Of a stretch of DNA of 64,000 bases, positions 1,181 to 8,518 are shown in pieces (positions within the stretch are counted from its first letter, which is position 1; each line of letters starts with the position of its first letter). The notes beneath the pieces were generated by a model. The model did not search any database. It was not told the DNA's origin and was given only the letters and a program-made list of their open reading frames with translations. Location of the stretch: positions 248,001 to 312,000 of the forward strand of contig NZ_QVLS01000003.1 in assembly GCF_003417535.1 (NCBI RefSeq), in the 5' to 3' direction. This DNA is from Hydrogenophaga borbori (lineage in GTDB: Bacteria; Pseudomonadota; Gammaproteobacteria; Burkholderiales; Burkholderiaceae_C). Made by a program: the position numbers and the translations under genes.

Positions 1181-2215
1181 TTGAGCCAATCGAACATCGG
1201 CGGCTTTCGCCTGGCCGGCGTGAGCACCTGCCTGCCGCCGACGGTGGTGGACAACCTCGACCCGGCCCTGGGCTTCGCGCCCGAGGACGTGCGCAAGGTG
1301 GTGGCCATGGCCGGCGTGCGCGAGCGCCGCGTGGTCACACCCGGCCTCACCTCGGCCGACCTGTGTTTTCGCGCCGCCACGCGGCTGATGGAGCGCCTGG
1401 ACTGGGCGCCCGACAGCGTGAGCGCGCTGATCTTCGTCACCCAGACGCCCGACCACTTCCTGCCCTCCACCAGCTGCCTGTTGCAGCAGCGGCTGGGCCT
1501 GCCCGACAGCTGCGCCGCCTTCGACGTCGGTCTGGGCTGCTCGGGCTACCCCTATGGCCTGTACCTGGCGGCCGCCATGCTGCGCGGCGGCGGCCACCGG
1601 CGCGTGCTCATGCTGCACGGCGAAACGCCCAGCCGCTTCGTCAGCCCCGAGGACCAGGCCACCGTGCTGCTGTTCAGCGACGCCGGCTCGGCCACCGCGC
1701 TGGAACTCGACGACGACCCCGCCGCGGGCGGCCAATTCGTGCTGCACACCGACGGCAGCGGCGCCGAAGGCCTGATCCTGCGCGGCGGTGCCTTCCGCGA
1801 CCGCGAGCCGGCCAACCCGCGCCACCGCTTCCTGGAAATGGACGGCGCGGCCATCTTCAACTTCACCATCAAGCGCGTGCCCGCGCTGATCGCCGACACC
1901 CTGGCCTTCGCCGGCAAGGCGGTGGCCGACGTCGACGCCTTCGTCTTCCACCAGTCCAATCGCTTCATCATGAAACACCTGATGAAGAAGAGCGGCCTGC
2001 CGGACGAGCGCGTGCCGATGTCCATCGAAGACAGCGGCAACTGCGGCGGCCCTTCGGTGGCGGTGGCGCTCACGCGCCGGATCGCGCCGCCGCCGCCCGG
2101 GCAGCACCGGCTGTGGATGCTGCTGGGCTACGGCGTGGGCCTGTCCTGGGGCGCCGCCCTGGTGCGGGCCGACGACCGTACCCTGCTGCTGCACGACGAC
2201 GGCGAAGGCCTGTGA
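1181..2215 (+). CDS. 3-oxoacyl-ACP synthase III (KASIII) family protein
   Basis: Thiolase-fold condensing enzyme, 344 aa. FabH-type enzymes join an acyl starter to malonyl-ACP. The triad is visible as Cys120 (GLGCSGY), His257 (FVFHQSN) and Asn287 (SGNCGGPS), with spacing close to FabH. A longer frame begins at 1058, but TTG at 1181 is preferred because AAGAGGGA sits about 6 nt upstream and homology begins there. It is the first gene of a co-directional cassette with two ACPs, a GNAT protein, AsnB, an acyl-adenylating ligase and a NadE-like enzyme. Housekeeping fabH normally lies in the fab cluster, so this copy is probably specialised for this pathway. Substrate unknown. Confidence 0.88.
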   Translation: MSQSNIGGFRLAGVSTCLPPTVVDNLDPALGFAPEDVRKVVAMAGVRERRVVTPGLTSADLCFRAATRLMERLDWAPDSVSALIFVTQTPDHFLPSTSCLLQQRLGLPDSCAAFDVGLGCSGYPYGLYLAAAMLRGGGHRRVLMLHGETPSRFVSPEDQATVLLFSDAGSATALELDDDPAAGGQFVLHTDGSGAEGLILRGGAFRDREPANPRHRFLEMDGAAIFNFTIKRVPALIADTLAFAGKAVADVDAFVFHQSNRFIMKHLMKKSGLPDERVPMSIEDSGNCGGPSVAVALTRRIAPPPPGQHRLWMLLGYGVGLSWGAALVRADDRTLLLHDDGEGL

Positions 2216-2234
2216 TCCATCCCAACCGCTCCGC

Positions 2235-2504
2235 ATGACGCCCAGCACCCGCCCCACCATCACCCAGACCGAGGCCCTGGCCATGCTGGCCGAGTGCTTC
2301 AACGTGCCGCCCGAGAGCCTGCACCCGGACGTGGAACGCGAGTCCATCGAAGACTGGGACTCCATGGGCGCGCTGATGCTGATCGCCGAACTCGACGAGC
2401 GCTTCGGCATCGAGCTCACGGCCGATGTCTCGCGCGAGATGACGCGCATCGGCCACGTGCTGGACTTCCTGCGCGAGCAGGGGGCGCTGCGTGCGGGCGA
2501 CTGA
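2235..2504 (+). CDS. Acyl carrier protein (first of two in the cassette)
   Basis: An 89-aa carrier protein with the phosphopantetheine site in WDSMG (Ser43), preceded by an acidic helix. It should carry an acyl thioester for the upstream KASIII or the downstream GNAT protein. It begins 19 nt after the KASIII stop, and its last 14 nt overlap the GNAT gene, which suggests translational coupling. The sequence differs from AcpP (Met after Ser, in place of the usual Leu), which supports a dedicated rather than housekeeping carrier. Confidence 0.9.
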   Translation: MTPSTRPTITQTEALAMLAECFNVPPESLHPDVERESIEDWDSMGALMLIAELDERFGIELTADVSREMTRIGHVLDFLREQGALRAGD

Positions 2505-3648
2505 ACACGGCCGCCCCGTGGCGCCGGCGCCGCGCGTGCCGGCGCACGACAAGCTCGGCCGCTTGGTGGCGCGCAGCCTGGGGCTGGACGAGGCCGCGCT
2601 GCGCGAGGGCCTGCGCGCGGCCACGCTGGACGACCTGCCCGAGCTCATCGCCCTGCGCCGCGAGCACCTGCTGCCCGGCCACGAGTGGGACGACGACGCC
2701 TACCTGCGCTGGCGCTACCGCCTCGGGCGCGAGGGCGCGGGCTTCGGCGAGCTGTGGTGCCTGCGCGCCCACGGCCGGGTGCTGGCCACCATCGGCGTGG
2801 AAGACCTGCCCATCGAACTGGACGGCCAGGCGCTCGCCGGCGCGCAGGTGATGGACCTGCTGGTGCGGCCGGAGGCGCAGGAGTCGGGCCTGGGCATCTG
2901 GCTCAACCAGGCCATGCTCGCGCGCCACGGCTTCACGCTCGCGGTGGGCGCCAACCAGAACTCGGCCGGCATCGTGCGCCGCCTCTTCGAGCCGCTGCCA
3001 CCGCGCCTGACCTTCACCCACCCCTTGGACCTGCAGCCCTTCGTTCGGCGCCGCTGGCCCGCGCTGGCCGCCACGCCGCTGGCCATGCGCCTGGCCAACG
3101 CCGGCCTGGCCCTGCGGCGCCTGGCGCTGCGCCGCCACCGCCCGCGCGGCTTCACGCTGGAGAACACCCCGCGGCTCGACCCCGCGCTGAGCGCGCCGCT
3201 GGCGCGCGGGGCCGCCGGCGTGCACCTGCGCCACGGTGGCGCCTACCTGCAGCGCCGCCTGCTCGACAACCCGCGCCGGCCCTTGAGCCTGCGCGTGGCG
3301 CGGCGCGGCGACGCCGTCGCCGGCCTCATCGCCTGGTCGGTGGAAACCGACGACCGCGGCCGGCCCGAGTTGCACCTGGTCGATTGGCACCACGACGGCG
3401 ACGACACCCTGCTGGTGCTGCTGCACGAGGCCATCCGCGAGGCCGCCGCGCTGCGCTGCACCTGCGTGCGCCTGCTGCTGCAGGACGAGGCCTCGCGGCG
3501 CGTGGCCGTGCGCGCCGGTTTCCTGCCGTCGCAGGACGACGGGGGTCGCCCCTGCGGCGTGCAGTCGCGCGACCCCGAACTGGCCGCCCGGCTGGCCCGC
3601 GCGCCCTGGCGCCTGACCGACCTGCGCGACGACGCCGATGGCTTCTAG
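2491..3648 (+). CDS. Tandem GNAT-fold acyltransferase
   Basis: A 385-aa protein with two GNAT-like halves. The first (about residues 40-160) has the motif-A-like stretch MDLLVRPEAQESGLGIWL; the second (about 265-350) has a degenerate GNAT core that ends EASRRVAVRAGF. Between them lies an Arg/Leu/Ala-rich linker. GNAT proteins move an acyl group from CoA or ACP to an amine, and the adjacent ACP makes an acyl-ACP donor plausible. The start is GTG at 2491, inside the ACP gene; another GTG lies at 2518. I do not recognise a named family, so acceptor and donor are inferred from context only. Confidence 0.72.
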   Translation: MRATEHGRPVAPAPRVPAHDKLGRLVARSLGLDEAALREGLRAATLDDLPELIALRREHLLPGHEWDDDAYLRWRYRLGREGAGFGELWCLRAHGRVLATIGVEDLPIELDGQALAGAQVMDLLVRPEAQESGLGIWLNQAMLARHGFTLAVGANQNSAGIVRRLFEPLPPRLTFTHPLDLQPFVRRRWPALAATPLAMRLANAGLALRRLALRRHRPRGFTLENTPRLDPALSAPLARGAAGVHLRHGGAYLQRRLLDNPRRPLSLRVARRGDAVAGLIAWSVETDDRGRPELHLVDWHHDGDDTLLVLLHEAIREAAALRCTCVRLLLQDEASRRVAVRAGFLPSQDDGGRPCGVQSRDPELAARLARAPWRLTDLRDDADGF

Positions 3649-3684
3649 GAAGCCCGAGCGCCCCTTGCCGAGCGAGGCCTGAGC

Positions 3685-5628
3685 ATGTGCGGCATCGCCG
3701 GTCTCTTCAGCCCCCGCCAGCCGCCCCGGCGCGAGGAACTCGCCGCCATGGCGCGCGCCCTGCATCACCGTGGCCCGGACGGCCAGGGCGTGTGGCACGA
3801 CGGGCCGATCGGCCTGGCGCACGCGCGCCTGGCCATCATCGACCTCGATGGCGGCGCCCAGCCCATGGCCAGCGCGGACGGCCGCGTGCAGCTGGTCTTC
3901 AACGGCGAAATCTTCAACTACATCGAACTGCGCGCCGAGCTGCGCGCCTTGGGCCGGCACTTCCGCACCGACTCCGACACCGAGGTGCTGCTGCAGGCCT
4001 ACCAGGCCTGGGGCGATGGCTTCCTGTCGCGCCTGAATGGCCAGTTCGCCATCGGCCTGTGGGACGCCGAGCGGCAGCGCCTGCTGCTGGCTCGCGACGG
4101 CGTGGGCATCCGTCCGCTGTTCTGGACGCGGATGGGCGAACGGCTGGCCTTCGCCTCCGAGGCCAAGGCCCTGTTCGCCCTGCCCGCCGTGCCGCGCGCG
4201 CTCGACCCGGCCGGCCTGGCCGCCAGCCTGGGCTGGTGGGCGCCGCTGGCGCCGCGCACGGCATTCGATGGCATCCACTGCCTGCCGCCGGGCCACCGCC
4301 TGGTGGTGGACGCCGCCGGTGAACACCTCAGCCGCTGGTGGGACTGGGACTTCCCCGACAGCGACCCCTTCGCGCCCGTGGACGAGGACGCGCTGGCCGA
4401 CCAGCTGCACGCCCTGCTGGTGGACGCCGTGCGCCTGCAGCTGCGCGCCGACGTGCCCGTGGGCGCCTACCTCAGCGGCGGGCTGGACTCGTCCATCCTC
4501 ACCACCATCATCCGCCGCCACACCGACACGCCGCTGCGTTGCTTCTCGCTCACCTTCGACGAGGCCGAATACGACGAGAGCGCGCACCAGCGCCTGATGG
4601 TGCGCCATCTGGACACGCGGCACAGCGCCATCGGCTGCGGCCGGGCGGACATCGCCGCCGCCTTCGCGCGCAGCGTGTGGCACGCCGAAACCCCGCTGGT
4701 GCGCACCGCCCCCGCCCCCATGCTGCGCCTGGCCGACAGCGTGCGCGCCGCCGGCTACAAGGTGGTGCTCACCGGCGAAGGCGCGGACGAGGTCTTCGGC
4801 GGCTACGACCTGTTCAAGGAAGCCAAGATCCGCCGCTTCGTCGCGCGGCTGCCCGGCTCGGCGCGGCGCGCGCGCGCGGTGGAGCGGCTCTACCCGTGGA
4901 TGGCGCGCTCGCCCGGCGGCGCCCACAACGTGCTCGCGCAGCGCTTCTTCACCGACAGCCGCGTGCCCGATGGCGACCCCGGCTTCGCCCACCAGACGCG
5001 CCTGGCCAGCACGCGCCGCGCCTGGGCCTTCTTCACGCCCGAGTGGCAGCACAGGCTCGCCGCGCACGAGCCCGCCGCGCAATGGCGCGCGCGCGTGCCC
5101 GAGGCCTTCGCCCACTGGCAGCCGCTGGCGCGCGACCAGTACACCGAGGCCCACACGCTCATGAGCGGCTACCTGCTGGCCGCGCAGGGCGACCGCATGG
5201 CCATGGCGGCGTCCATCGAAGGCCGCTACCCCTTCCTCGACCCGCGGGTCATCGCCTTCGCCGCCGCCCTGCCGCCGCGCCTGAAGATGCGCGGCCTGCG
5301 CGAGAAGTTGCTGCTGCGCCAGGCCTTCGCGCGCGAGCTGCCGCCCGCCATCGGCCAGCGCACCAAGCAGCCCTACCGCTCGCCCGACAGCGCCAGCTTT
5401 TTCGAGGACGGCCAACCCCTGCCCTGGGTGCGCGAGCTGCTGAGCGAGGGCAGCCTGCGCGAGGCCGGGCTGTTCGACGCACCTGCCGTCGCGCGGCTCA
5501 GCGCCAAGTGCGCGGCCGGTCGCGCCATCGGCTTCGCCGACAACATGGCCTTCGTGGGCGTGCTCTCCACCCAGCTGCTGCACCGGCAGTTCGTGCGCGC
5601 CGAGGCACCGGCGATGGAGCCGTCATGA
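3685..5628 (+). CDS. asnB: AsnB-type glutamine-hydrolysing amidotransferase
   Basis: Class II glutamine amidotransferase fused to an ATP-pyrophosphatase synthetase, 647 aa. The catalytic Cys2 is present (MCGIAGLF), so glutamine can supply ammonia. The synthetase PP-loop SGGLDSS is at residues 264-270, and GEGADEVFGGYD follows as in AsnB. The usual asparagine synthetase is about 554 aa; the longer form is common in polysaccharide, lipid and natural-product clusters, where it amidates other carboxylates. It is followed by an ATGA overlap with the ligase gene. Asparagine synthesis cannot be excluded, but the cassette suggests amidation of a pathway intermediate. Confidence 0.92.
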   Translation: MCGIAGLFSPRQPPRREELAAMARALHHRGPDGQGVWHDGPIGLAHARLAIIDLDGGAQPMASADGRVQLVFNGEIFNYIELRAELRALGRHFRTDSDTEVLLQAYQAWGDGFLSRLNGQFAIGLWDAERQRLLLARDGVGIRPLFWTRMGERLAFASEAKALFALPAVPRALDPAGLAASLGWWAPLAPRTAFDGIHCLPPGHRLVVDAAGEHLSRWWDWDFPDSDPFAPVDEDALADQLHALLVDAVRLQLRADVPVGAYLSGGLDSSILTTIIRRHTDTPLRCFSLTFDEAEYDESAHQRLMVRHLDTRHSAIGCGRADIAAAFARSVWHAETPLVRTAPAPMLRLADSVRAAGYKVVLTGEGADEVFGGYDLFKEAKIRRFVARLPGSARRARAVERLYPWMARSPGGAHNVLAQRFFTDSRVPDGDPGFAHQTRLASTRRAWAFFTPEWQHRLAAHEPAAQWRARVPEAFAHWQPLARDQYTEAHTLMSGYLLAAQGDRMAMAASIEGRYPFLDPRVIAFAAALPPRLKMRGLREKLLLRQAFARELPPAIGQRTKQPYRSPDSASFFEDGQPLPWVRELLSEGSLREAGLFDAPAVARLSAKCAAGRAIGFADNMAFVGVLSTQLLHRQFVRAEAPAMEPS

Positions 5629-7160
5629 GCATGGGCCCTTTCGTGCACAGCGCCTTCGAGGCGCGCTGCCGCGACCAACCCGGCAAGGTGGCCGTGGTGG
5701 TGGGCGAGCGGCGCCTGAGCTACGGCGAACTCGCGGCGATGGTCCAGGGCATCGCCGAGACCTTGCAGGTCGAGGGCGTGCGGCCCGGCGATCGCGTGGT
5801 GCTGTTGCTGGACAGCGGCGCCGAGTACGTGGCCGCCCTGCACGCGGTGTGGCGCCTGGGCGCGGTGGCGGTGCCGCTGGGTCCGCAGACCAAGGCGGCC
5901 AAGCTCGCCCATGTGCTCGCCGACACCGGCGCGCGCGCCCTGCTCACGCAAGCCACGCTGGCAACCGTGTGGACCGCCGCGCTCGCGCAGGCGCCCGAGA
6001 CGCCGCACGTGTGGGCCCACGGTCCGGTGCCCGCGGCCACGACCGCCCGGCCCTGGCCCCAGCCCGCGCCCATCCCCGCGCCCCTCGCCGGCCCCACCAG
6101 CCCCGGCGACCTGGCCACCCTGATCTACACCTCCGGCACCACCGGGCAGCCCAAGGGCGTGATGCTCAGCCACGCCAACATGCTCGCGGCCTGGCGCGCG
6201 GTGCAAACCTACCTGCAGCTGCGGCCCGACGACGTCATCGGCCTGGCGCTGCCGCCCAGCTTCAGCTACGGCCTGTACCACGTGGTGATGGGGCTGGGAC
6301 TGGGTGCCACGCTGGTGCTGGAAAACAGCGCGGCCTTCCCGGCCAGGCTGCTGCAGCGCCTCGCGGCCGAGCGCGTGAGCGTTTTCCCTGGCGTGCCCAT
6401 GCTCTGGGCCAGCCTGCTGGCGCTGGACCTGGGCGCGCACGACCTGTCCGCCCTGCGCCTCATCACCAACGCCGCCGCCGCCCTGCCGGCCGCGCACACC
6501 GCGCAGTTGCGCCAGCGCCTGCCCCGGGCGCGCCTGCTGCTCATGTACGGGCTGACCGAGTGCATGCGCGCGAGCTACCTGCCGCACGACGAGGTGGACA
6601 TCCGCCCCGACAGCGTGGGCCGCGGCCTGCCCTTCCAAGCCCACTGGCTGATCGACGAGCACGGCCAGCGCCTGCCCAACGGCGGCCTCGGCGCCACCGG
6701 CGAGCTGGTGGTGAGCGGTCCGCACGTGAGCCCCGGCTACTGGAACGCGCCGCCCGGCCAGACCGGCCGCATCACCCCAGGCCCGCGCCCCGGCGAACAC
6801 ACCCTGCGCACCGGCGACGTCTTCCGCTGCGACGCGCACGGCTGGCTCTACTGCGTGGGCCGCACCGACGACATGTTCAAGTCGCGCGGCGAGAAGGTCT
6901 ACCCGCTGGAAGTGGAGCACGCCATCTGCGAACTGCCCGGCGTGCTGGAGGCGGCCGTCGCCCCCATGCCCGACGAACGCCTGGGCCTGGCCGTGAAGGC
7001 CCACGTGCGACTGCAGCCCGGCGCCACGCTGAGCGAGCGCGAGGTCATCCGCCACTGCCAGGCCCGCCTGGAAAGCTGGATGGCGCCCAAGGCCGTGGCC
7101 TTCGTCGACCAATTGCCCCAAACCGAGTCCGGCAAGCTGCGCCGGCGCGACCTGGCCTGA
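5625..7160 (+). CDS. AMP-dependent acyl-CoA/acyl-ACP ligase
   Basis: A 511-aa ANL-superfamily adenylating enzyme that activates a carboxylic acid as acyl-AMP and passes it to CoA or a carrier protein. Visible motifs are the P-loop YTSGTTGQPKGV (A3), YGLTE (A5), the TGD core (A7), GRTDDMFKSRGEKVYP (A8) and the C-terminal lysine region ESGKLRRRDL (A10). The start ATG at 5625 overlaps the AsnB stop by four bases. Next to it is a small ACP, so loading of that ACP is likely. It resembles ligases found with exosortase-associated exopolysaccharide loci, but no exosortase gene is nearby. Confidence 0.9.
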   Translation: MSMGPFVHSAFEARCRDQPGKVAVVVGERRLSYGELAAMVQGIAETLQVEGVRPGDRVVLLLDSGAEYVAALHAVWRLGAVAVPLGPQTKAAKLAHVLADTGARALLTQATLATVWTAALAQAPETPHVWAHGPVPAATTARPWPQPAPIPAPLAGPTSPGDLATLIYTSGTTGQPKGVMLSHANMLAAWRAVQTYLQLRPDDVIGLALPPSFSYGLYHVVMGLGLGATLVLENSAAFPARLLQRLAAERVSVFPGVPMLWASLLALDLGAHDLSALRLITNAAAALPAAHTAQLRQRLPRARLLLMYGLTECMRASYLPHDEVDIRPDSVGRGLPFQAHWLIDEHGQRLPNGGLGATGELVVSGPHVSPGYWNAPPGQTGRITPGPRPGEHTLRTGDVFRCDAHGWLYCVGRTDDMFKSRGEKVYPLEVEHAICELPGVLEAAVAPMPDERLGLAVKAHVRLQPGATLSEREVIRHCQARLESWMAPKAVAFVDQLPQTESGKLRRRDLA

Positions 7161-7198
7161 GCCCTTTTCCCTTGACCCCCCCCAACGAGCACACCACC

Positions 7199-7456
7199 AT
7201 GAGCACCATCAAAGCCGAGGTCCGGCGCTACATCGAAGAGAACCTGCTGCTGGGCGCGGGCGCCGTCTCGCCGGGCGACGACGAGTCCTTCCTCGAGCAC
7301 CAGGTGCTCGACTCCACCGGCTTCCTCGAACTTGTGGCGCACCTGGAGCAGACCTACGGCATCACGATCGGTGACGAGGAAATGGTGCCGGAAAACCTGG
7401 ATTCGCTGAACGCGATCGAGGCCTTCGTGCTCGGCAAGAAGGCAGCGTCGGTATGA
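7199..7456 (+). CDS. Acyl carrier protein (second in the cassette)
   Basis: An 85-aa phosphopantetheine carrier with Ser39 in LDSTGF and the typical four-helix pattern ending in LNAIEAFV. It begins 38 nt after the ligase and overlaps the NadE-like gene by four bases (ATGA), so the three are probably co-translated. It is clearly different from the first ACP of the cassette, which suggests that the two carriers serve different steps. The most likely loading partner is the adjacent AMP-dependent ligase. Confidence 0.9.
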   Translation: MSTIKAEVRRYIEENLLLGAGAVSPGDDESFLEHQVLDSTGFLELVAHLEQTYGITIGDEEMVPENLDSLNAIEAFVLGKKAASV

Positions 7457-8424
7457 GCGCGGCACCGCTGGGCCCGCAAAGCCTGCACCTCGACTGCGCG
7501 GCCGAACTCGCTCGCATCAGCGAATGGATCCCGCGCGTGCTGACGCAGAAGCTGCGCCGCCGCGGCCTGGTGGTGGCCATCAGCGGCGGCATCGACAGCT
7601 CGGTCTGCGCCGCGTTGAGCGTGCGTGCCGTGGGCGCGGACAAGGTCTTTGGCCTGTTGCTGCCCGAGCGCGACTCCAGCGGCTTCAGCAGCGAGCGCGG
7701 CCGCCTGCTGGCCGAGCACCTGGGCATTCGGTACCAGGTGCACGACATCGCGCCCGCGCTGGAGGCCCTGGGCTGCTACCAGCAGCGCGACGAGGCCATC
7801 CGCCGCGTGGTACCGGCCTACGGCGAGGGCTGGAAGAACAAGATCGTGCTCGCGGGCGGGCTGGAGGGCGGCATCAACTTCTTCAGGCTGGTGGTGCAGT
7901 CGCCCGAGGGCGAGCAGCAAAGCGTGCGTCTGCCTCCGCGCGAGTACCTGCAGATCGTGGCGGCCACCAACTTCAAGCAGCGCGTGCGCAAGACCATGGA
8001 GTACTTCCACGCCGACCGCCTGAACTACGCCGTGGTGGGCACGCCCAACCGGCTGGAGTACGACCAGGGCTTCTTCGTGAAGAACGGCGACGGCTCGGCC
8101 GACCTCAAGCCCATCGCCCACCTCTACAAGACCCAGGTCTACGCCATGGCGCGTCACCTGGGCCTGCCCGAGGCGATCTGCAGCGCCGTGCCCACCACCG
8201 ACACCTACACCCTGCCGCAGGGCCAGGACGAGTTCTACTTCGCCCTGCCCTACGCGCAGATGGACCTGGCGCTGTGGGCGCTGGAGCATGGGCACACGGC
8301 CGATGAGCTGGCCGCCGCCCTGAACACCACGCCCGCGCAGGCGCAGCGCGTCTACGACGACATCCGCGCCAAGCGGCGGGCGACGGAGTACCTGGCCGCC
8401 GCGGCGGAACGGCTGCCGGCCTGA
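7453..8424 (+). CDS. nadE: NAD+ synthase-family ATP-dependent amide synthetase
   Basis: A 323-aa N-type ATP-pyrophosphatase. The PP-loop SGGIDSS is at residues 44-50; GTPNRLEYDQGFFVKNGDGSADLKPI matches in position the NadE segment that binds deamido-NAD and the magnesium site, and HLYKTQV follows. There is no glutaminase (nitrilase) domain, so ammonia would come free or from a partner such as the AsnB-type enzyme upstream. NadE makes NAD from deamido-NAD; this copy has a longer middle section and sits last in a biosynthetic cassette, so it may amidate or ligate another adenylated substrate. Housekeeping NAD synthesis cannot be ruled out. Confidence 0.8.
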   Translation: MSAAPLGPQSLHLDCAAELARISEWIPRVLTQKLRRRGLVVAISGGIDSSVCAALSVRAVGADKVFGLLLPERDSSGFSSERGRLLAEHLGIRYQVHDIAPALEALGCYQQRDEAIRRVVPAYGEGWKNKIVLAGGLEGGINFFRLVVQSPEGEQQSVRLPPREYLQIVAATNFKQRVRKTMEYFHADRLNYAVVGTPNRLEYDQGFFVKNGDGSADLKPIAHLYKTQVYAMARHLGLPEAICSAVPTTDTYTLPQGQDEFYFALPYAQMDLALWALEHGHTADELAAALNTTPAQAQRVYDDIRAKRRATEYLAAAAERLPA

Positions 8425-8431
8425 GTCCGGG

Positions 8432-8460
8432 CGCCTGGCGAAGCCTTCGCCGGGCGTTTT
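8432..8460 (+). terminator. Rho-independent terminator after the cassette
   Basis: An 11-bp stem (8432-8442 with 8446-8456, one G-T pair), 3-nt loop, then four T. It starts 7 bp after the NadE-like stop and closes the operon that begins at 1181. Confidence 0.75.
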
Positions 8461-8518
8461 CGCGGCGGGTTGGCCGGGTTACATTGGCGCCCTCAATCCG
8501 GCGCATCAGGAGCCCACC

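Follow-up and report, generated by a model that had tools for sequence, protein, structure and literature searches.

A stretch of 64,000 nucleotides of the Hydrogenophaga borbori genome (contig NZ_QVLS01000003.1, positions 248,001 to 312,000; hereafter the window) carries at 1181-8424 seven plus-strand genes. They encode a beta-ketoacyl-acyl carrier protein synthase III-like protein (KASIII), an acyl carrier protein (ACP1), a GNAT acyltransferase, an AsnB-type amidotransferase, an AMP-forming ligase, a second acyl carrier protein (ACP2) and a NadE-like amide synthetase. This cassette is a real, selected and patchily distributed unit. It comprises a core, AsnB-ligase-ACP2-NadE, often accompanied by a GNAT relative, and a KASIII-ACP1 pair that looks like an extension unit added to this core. 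It is proposed, with a probability of about 0.4, that the cassette is a self-contained acyl-building pathway, in which an amide-bearing acyl group would be assembled on carrier protein and then transferred to an amine. The cassette joins known enzyme families in a combination that is not described in the literature searched, where no pathway with this seven-gene set was found.

The four-gene core was traced through its NadE family (NF002048), whose cut-off was exceeded in 15 of 398 Pseudomonadota genomes, that of H. borbori included; among 200 genomes of the window's order, it was exceeded in H. borbori only. Stretches of 17-20 kb around the other 14 genes of this family encoded AsnB in 13 cases and the ligase and ACP2 in all 14, versus 0/20 for each of the three in 17.5-kb stretches around 20 ordinary nadE genes, where a KASIII match occurred in 3/20. 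These control loci all came from the window's order and were 20 of the 29 loci of a shorter control. In that short-stretch comparison the counts were 14/14 versus 0/29, with control stretches reaching just 1.5 kb beyond partial NadE matches. NadE matches at E <= 1e-60 were also present in 116 plasmid records, from Sinorhizobium (76), Azospirillum (12), Ensifer (9), Shinella (8), Mesorhizobium (7), Rhizobium (2), Nitratireductor (1) and Roseateles (1). Seven plasmid loci (L091, L092, L095-L099) were hand-picked among the matches listed (40 and 38 of the 116 records), and these, together with one further Sinorhizobium meliloti record, all contained the four-gene core (8/8). L082 was covered by tblastn, and L100 repeats S. 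meliloti.

AsnB, ligase, ACP2 and NadE were therefore linked in 20 of 21 NadE-selected core loci (14 plus the seven on plasmids), as they are in the window; the sole exception is L078, in which AsnB was not found. KASIII and ACP1 were found in none of these 21 loci (tblastn, E 1e-3, in the stretches read). The cassette is therefore a composite of two modules. A NadE tree with 38 rows placed the 16 from KASIII-bearing loci in one well supported group (98/99), which has 20 members, four of them without KASIII. The KASIII label required three changes on this tree, which is consistent with one or several gains of KASIII. The NadE of locus L098 (NZ_CP084753.1), labelled Roseateles sp. XES5 (UNVERIFIED_ORG), grouped most closely with the Shinella NadE; this organism label may be wrong, and the locus was not counted as betaproteobacterial.

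The KASIII-bearing form was compared in 17 loci, obtained by scanning a genome-contig collection with KASIII peptide patterns, which picks up close relatives only. They were examined by tblastn of the seven proteins and by gene-finding with clustering, the stretch covered around each locus, in this set and among the core loci, being 6.7 to 25 kb; the apparent duplicates L087-L090 (of L041, L043, L057 and L044, respectively) were left uncounted. ACP1 was present in all 17 loci, AsnB in 16, ACP2 and NadE in 15 each, the ligase in 14 and the GNAT in 13. The gene order of the window is kept in six, from Hydrogenophaga (L041, L043, L044, L057) and Pseudoxanthomonas (L048, L051), and in a further nine at least six of the seven genes are retained, in another order or without a detected GNAT. 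In four loci (L045 and L046, both from Piscinibacter, plus L047 and L049), the order is KASIII-AsnB-ligase-ACP2-NadE, with ACP1 upstream amid two short-chain dehydrogenases/reductases (SDRs) and a FabA-like dehydratase (by Pfam on L045, by clustering on the others). No GNAT was found in these four. Three of them encode a protein of the AAC(3) (aminoglycoside-3-N-acetyltransferase) family (L045 by Pfam, L046 and L047 by clustering), of which no homologue was found in L049. In five loci (L050, L052-L055), AsnB-ACP2-KASIII-ACP1-GNAT faces NadE-ligase, the ligase not being found in L055. The neighbourhood search proposed by the earlier note on this DNA, which had been made from the sequence alone, thus found conserved order or linkage in relatives and not scattered genes.

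Within the genus, KASIII was found at E <= 1e-100 in five of 60 genomes, that of H. borbori included. The scanned flanking genes of two loci are ordinary, with aconitase B and mnmA beside Pseudoxanthomonas L048 and alanyl-tRNA synthetase beside L054. Clustering of the 17 loci revealed no gene beyond the seven that recurs in all variants, hence no exporter or regulator travels with the cassette. The dN/dS ratios against Hydrogenophaga intermedia ranged from 0.14 to 0.41, lowest for NadE (0.14), KASIII (0.15) and ACP2 (0.16) and highest for ACP1 and GNAT (0.41 each), so the seven genes are maintained by purifying selection.

The features of the cassette, located in a draft genome of 4.58 Mb, are the following:

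1181-2215, plus strand: KASIII, beta-ketoacyl-ACP synthase III-like, 344 amino acids (aa), TTG start (PF08541/PF08545)
2235-2504, plus strand: ACP1, 89 aa, phosphopantetheine Ser43 (PF00550, 21.8 bits versus a cut-off of 20.8)
2491-3648, plus strand: putative tandem-GNAT acyltransferase, 385 aa from the GTG at 2491 (predicted structure)
3685-5628, plus strand: AsnB-type glutamine-dependent amidotransferase, 647 aa, Cys2 and SGGLDSS intact (PF00733, PF13537)
5625-7160, plus strand: AMP-forming acyl ligase, 511 aa (PF00501/PF13193)
7199-7456, plus strand: ACP2, 85 aa, Ser39 in LDSTGF (PF00550, 26.2 bits)
7453-8424, plus strand: NadE-like NH3-dependent amide synthetase, PRK00876 subfamily, 323 aa (NF002048, 488.7 bits)
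about 8429-8460, plus strand: probable intrinsic terminator, hairpin and short U run (folding of 8420-8470)

Open reading frames (ORFs) and protein families confirmed the seven co-directional genes that the earlier note had described. Of the three overlaps that it had listed, those of AsnB with the ligase and of ACP2 with NadE are present (4 nt each), while that of ACP1 with the GNAT hinges on the start codon, since an alternative GTG at 2518 leaves none. The terminator noted at the end of the cassette is plausible, not certain: the 51 nt from 8420 to 8470 fold at -28.6 kcal/mol (z -1.76; 13 of 200 shuffles equally good) into a hairpin (stem of 13-14 bp, about 8429-8459) just ahead of a short U run, but this hairpin is absent from the list of a consensus terminator scan. 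The catalytic residues, reported as intact, are indeed kept in every aligned row, the window included: KASIII Cys120/His257/Asn287 (18/18), AsnB Cys2 (37/37), ACP1 Ser43 (18/18), ACP2 Ser39 (37/37) and ligase Lys177, Glu312, Asp398 and Lys504 (36/36). Exceptions were seen at secondary sites, namely ligase Thr172 (Ser in 17/36) and Gly503 (Ala in 1/36) and NadE Lys210 (Arg in 1/37). Upstream of the cassette lie a reverse-strand radical SAM gene (1-927), a DUF1653 gene and thiamine-synthesis genes, and downstream LysR, TctC, AstE-like and MOFRL-family genes (all by Pfam). Elsewhere in the genome, contig C12 (232000-297000) contains consecutive long ORFs (1,299-4,241 aa) rich in phosphopantetheine-binding domains; they probably form a large cluster resembling those of nonribosomal peptide synthetases (NRPSs) or polyketide synthases.

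Pfam and NCBIfam named six of the seven proteins, ACP1 being barely over its cut-off, and gave no match for the GNAT at E 0.001. KASIII has the Cys-His-Asn triad but scored 191.2 bits against the FabH model (TIGR00747, cut-off 292.1), and was therefore not taken as a standard FabH. AsnB exceeded the general model TIGR01536 (482.3 bits). It was below the cut-off of TIGR03104, the N-acetylglutaminylglutamine amide amidotransferase (340.4 versus 570.1 bits), an identity that was therefore rejected, and below that of TIGR03108, the XrtA/PEP-CTERM amidotransferase (401.7 versus 816.9 bits). The ligase likewise fell below the XrtA ligase model TIGR03098 (359 versus 592.35 bits). At ligase position 214, which we take to be the site of the amino-binding Asp of NRPS adenylation domains and treat as a lead only, the 15 KASIII-locus ligases, the window's included, have S, N, I or A, and the 21 core-locus ligases have D (10), G (7), S (2) or A (2). 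ACP2 did not reach the cut-offs of NF058660, the cispentacin ACP AmcB (48.2 versus 80 bits), or of NF052616, the ornithine-lipid OlsHI ACP (39.9 versus 130 bits). The OlsHI route, for which the available parts of PMC12493201 were consulted, was rejected on this weak ACP2 score; no search aimed at OlsH/OlsI-like enzymes was made.

The third protein had been correctly called a GNAT, and this assignment can be sharpened. Its AlphaFold2 model (from 14 sequences, pLDDT 85.4) has a tandem-GNAT fold, which suggests the two-domain architecture of N-myristoyltransferases. The latter were its best structural matches (Foldseek E 4.4e-13; VIA-align Z 20.8, rmsd 4.8 over 312 residues, 12% identity). The predicted protein thus shares with eukaryotic N-myristoyltransferases an arrangement of tandem GNAT domains that aligns over about 300-330 residues (Z about 20), but it is bacterial, is only 10-12% identical to them and would probably take its acyl group from acyl-ACP. 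N-myristoyltransferases use myristoyl-CoA as donor and the N-terminal glycine of a protein as acceptor, and the cassette GNAT is not classed as one of them. GNAT relatives were present in 12 of the 21 core loci. Four are clear (family c42; E 1.2e-16 for the best member and 0.013 for the weakest against the window GNAT family, hhalign 98.9%) and eight marginal (family c41; best E 5.6e-5, hhalign 74.8%). A 373-aa c41 protein is encoded on S. meliloti pSymB (L091, 23406-24527), on the far side of minCDE and some 10 kb away from the core.

The cassette NadE exceeds both the NF002048/PRK00876 model (488.7 versus 313 bits) and the general nadE model TIGR00552 (137.1 versus 63.65 bits). In alignment, its SGGxDS loop is intact, as is the GFF-K-GDG-AD motif that it shares with E. 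coli NadE, and its AlphaFold2 model (pLDDT 78.7) matches NadE structures, with a TM score of 0.72 by target to 2e18. It resembles NH3-dependent NAD synthetase in fold, ATP loop and motif, but differs in its fixed linkage to AsnB, ligase and ACP and in being longer than the E. coli and ordinary NadEs aligned, mainly at about 107-163. This extra segment is common to the ten module NadEs aligned, that of S. meliloti included (the alignment leaves out canonical row L109, which is in a wrong frame). A second NadE is encoded on contig C14 of the same genome, of PRK13981 type (788.3 bits, over cut-off; 562 aa). The available parts of two papers on NadE structures (PMC3376133, PMC6946656) contain nothing on the PRK00876 subfamily. 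Among 14 control genomes, Methanosarcina acetivorans alone exceeded the NF002048 cut-off, so the subfamily reaches archaea.

In the proposed pathway, the ligase would adenylate a carboxylic acid, probably a small one, and load it onto the phosphopantetheine of ACP2, a reaction reported for the S. meliloti homologues. AsnB, with glutamine, and the NadE paralogue, with ammonia, could then convert one or more carboxylates of the ACP2-loaded group or of its precursor to carboxamide or related amide bonds, as their families suggest. In the KASIII-bearing form only, KASIII would condense this group or a short acyl-CoA with malonyl-ACP1, giving a beta-ketoacyl-ACP1, which the SDRs and FabA-like enzyme of some relatives could reduce and dehydrate. 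Finally, in the manner of N-myristoyltransferases, the tandem GNAT would transfer the acyl group to an amine, most likely that of an amino sugar in a nucleotide sugar or in a surface glycan. The earlier note had already suggested a pathway for an acylated and amidated product: the cassette is one unit and activation, extension, transfer and amidation fit, but the picture is modified to one of two modules. That no ketoreductase or glycosyltransferase is adjacent holds among the 10 flanking genes scanned around the window cassette, but not in relatives, where there are the SDRs and FabA-like gene of the Piscinibacter type, the sugar genes of L045 and core loci among polysaccharide genes. The earlier note had given the cassette no known product, and no pathway with this set is described in the literature searched, but the core is partly known by experiment in S. 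meliloti, as available parts of PMC7232532 indicate.

Some relatives of the cassette carry further genes. A 6.7-kb contig of a gammaproteobacterial metagenome-assembled genome (MAG; L056) reads KASIII-SDR-ACP1-GNAT-phosphopantetheinyl transferase-AsnB up to the contig edge. Its phosphopantetheinyl transferase gene (3522-4193) fits carrier proteins that need their own activation. In a Hydrogenophaga MAG (L042, 10001-16186), genes for a 5'-nucleotidase and an aldose epimerase come directly after KASIII-ACP1-GNAT. None of the four core genes was found in this stretch, which could be due to natural loss of part of the cassette or to a join made in assembly. Genes of the Asp/Arg beta-hydroxylase family and for an aldehyde dehydrogenase adjoin the cassette in L054 (12532-15029, by Pfam) and in L050, L052, L053 and L055 (by clustering), and are possible tailoring genes.

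The closest system with experimental data is the AsnB-ACP-ligase-NadE operon of S. meliloti pSymB. Identities to the cassette proteins are 50% for AsnB, 46% for the ligase, 47% for the ACP (74 residues) and 61% for NadE, but the gene order differs and no KASIII or ACP1 match was found in the 25 kb examined. The AMP-binding family has one match on pSymB (L091), adjoining the core ACP; the core ligase and ACP were therefore identified, by exclusion, with SMb20650 and SMb20651 (the record lacks locus tags), and the c41 protein encoded about 10 kb away is a candidate partner of both. According to the available parts of PMC7232532, SMb20650 is a pSymB AMP-binding ligase co-transcribed with the ACP SMb20651, its expression in E. 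coli acylated holo-SMb20651, and it could not replace FadD for long-chain fatty acids, giving no growth on oleate. Further investigation of the function of SMb20651 was called for in 2017 (PMC5686131, in the part available), and PMC10315480 mentions SMb20650 solely in a set of genes whose expression falls under predation. SMb20652 or SMb20649 together with SMb20651 were not found in the literature search.

KASIII-ACP-transferase sets are also known from glycan acylation. In the available parts of PMC3927599, vioS, acp, vioR and vioB belong to a Pseudomonas syringae island that makes N-(3-hydroxy-1-oxobutyl)viosamine; such sets can therefore attach beta-oxo or beta-hydroxy acyl groups to amino sugars in amide linkage. 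The first-ranked among 21 plasmid records with KASIII relatives is a Burkholderia glumae flagellin locus with vioA-KASIII-ACP-second KASIII-SDR-NeuD/VioB-family transferase. Identity to the KASIII of the window is 38% for the copy annotated after vioA and 46% for the unannotated second one. This stretch of pBGF3 (L093, 9540-15568; flagellin, fliD, vioA-KASIII-ACP-KASIII-SDR-VioB-type-Rieske) is apparently a glycan-acylation cluster, and no AsnB, ligase, ACP2 or NadE match was found in it. The cassette shares with these systems a KASIII, an ACP and an N-acyltransferase (the sequence compared being the B. glumae KASIII, not VioS). It differs from them in that they include a reductase and that the pBGF3 transferase is of NeuD/VioB type, whereas that of the cassette is modelled as a tandem GNAT. 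With this model, and with no aminotransferase among the Pfam matches of the cassette and scanned flanks, membership of a viosamine-type module was rejected. In the one Azospirillum neighbourhood examined (L094), the KASIII relative has sugar genes, an SDR and a GNAT close by.

An amino-sugar acceptor is plausible but unproven. Glycan genes lie near at least seven of the 21 core loci (L080, L083, L084, L085, L095, L098, L099) and near KASIII locus L045; the neighbours were Pfam-scanned in part, and these counts are lower bounds. They encode glycosyltransferases, polysaccharide deacetylases, O-antigen ligase family proteins, a PIG-L deacetylase and a nucleotidyltransferase. Several observations weigh against the proposed pathway or its acceptor. 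There is no sugar gene among the 10 genes flanking the window cassette or in the scanned flanks of Pseudoxanthomonas L048, which makes the acceptor a guess. The ligases of the reordered loci are 36-38% identical to that of the window and differ at the presumed pocket position, so that one common substrate is doubtful. No GNAT relative was seen in nine of the 21 core loci, eight of the 12 relatives found match marginally, at the level of sequence, and that of S. meliloti is distant from its core. Most plasmid KASIII relatives (19 of 21) are from Azospirillum and not from viosamine clusters. Action of AsnB or NadE on a carrier-bound group is conjectural, and the TIGR00552 score and GFF-K-GDG-AD motif are compatible with true NAD synthesis by the cassette NadE.

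The product could also be something other than a glycan decoration. The ordinary surroundings of the cassette in the window, L048 and L054 would suit a diffusible small molecule, either a natural product or a signal, such as an acyl amide or a lactam whose ring AsnB closes. So would the thioesterase-bearing adenylating protein or lone thioesterase adjoining some other cores, and the weak resemblance of ACP2 to AmcB. Such a product is nevertheless considered rather unlikely, given that no exporter or regulator recurs in all variants of the 17 KASIII loci, that glycan genes neighbour a number of core loci and that the recurring transferase is of an amine-acylating type. A lipid or amino acid might instead be the acceptor, yielding an unusual aminolipid head group or an N-acyl amino acid. 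The predicted N-myristoyltransferase-like fold would agree with this, as would the match of the S. meliloti core ACP to the ornithine-lipid ACP family (57.3 bits) and the Asp/Arg hydroxylase-family gene of the reordered loci, whose family presumably includes the lipid A hydroxylase LpxO. This acceptor is improbable, however, as the ACP score is far below the cut-off of 130 bits and SMb20650 did not support growth on oleate in the available parts of PMC7232532.

Two further readings concern the amide-forming genes. If NadE were a second true NAD synthase, linked to the other genes incidentally, the real pathway would consist of those six. The cassette protein does exceed TIGR00552, keep the E. 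coli NadE motifs and have a NadE-like predicted fold (TM 0.72 by target), but its linkage is kept in 14/14 loci from two GTDB classes versus 0/20 for ordinary NadE, another NadE (PRK13981 type) is present in the genome, the longer segment is conserved in the subfamily and its dN/dS is the lowest of the seven; incidental linkage would thus be surprising. A variant of the exosortase A (XrtA/PEP-CTERM) polysaccharide cassette was also considered, as the ligase is nearest TIGR03098 and AsnB, after the general TIGR01536, nearest TIGR03108. Locus L085 has a DUF3473 deacetylase and an ATPase, which we take to be of the kinds found in exosortase loci. The exosortase link that the earlier note had mentioned for AsnB and the ligase holds as paralogy only: they share the superfamilies of the XrtA enzymes (AsnB-type enzyme, AMP ligase), but both are far under the curated cut-offs, the cassette includes a NadE, and a separate XrtA-type amidotransferase is encoded on contig C1 (1026.8 bits). 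No exosortase or pyridoxal-phosphate decarboxylase was seen among the scanned neighbours, no family-directed search having been made. Membership of the exosortase cassette was ruled out on the missed cut-offs and the separate gene, and even a variant of it is very improbable.

Taken together with the acyl-building pathway proposed here, a wider possibility can be put forward tentatively. A NAD-synthetase paralogue may have been recruited to amidate an acyl acid, either carrier-bound or linked to a nucleotide, and may act alongside AsnB on one and the same ACP-tethered block. This pathway, in rhizobia, azospirilla, Burkholderiales and Pseudoxanthomonas, would feed interchangeable N-acyltransferases, and its product might be an undescribed acyl-amide decoration of surface glycans, in legume symbionts among others. 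The gene order, the transferase swaps and the added reductase and dehydratase of the relatives make the logic of the pathway directly testable. For SMb20651 and SMb20650 of S. meliloti, the analysis provides concrete partners: the other genes of a conserved four-gene core and, with less certainty, a tandem-GNAT acyltransferase. Finally, these results suggest that NadE, known from textbooks as a housekeeping enzyme, has a biosynthetic specialist among its relatives, one that is automatically annotated as NAD(+) synthase.

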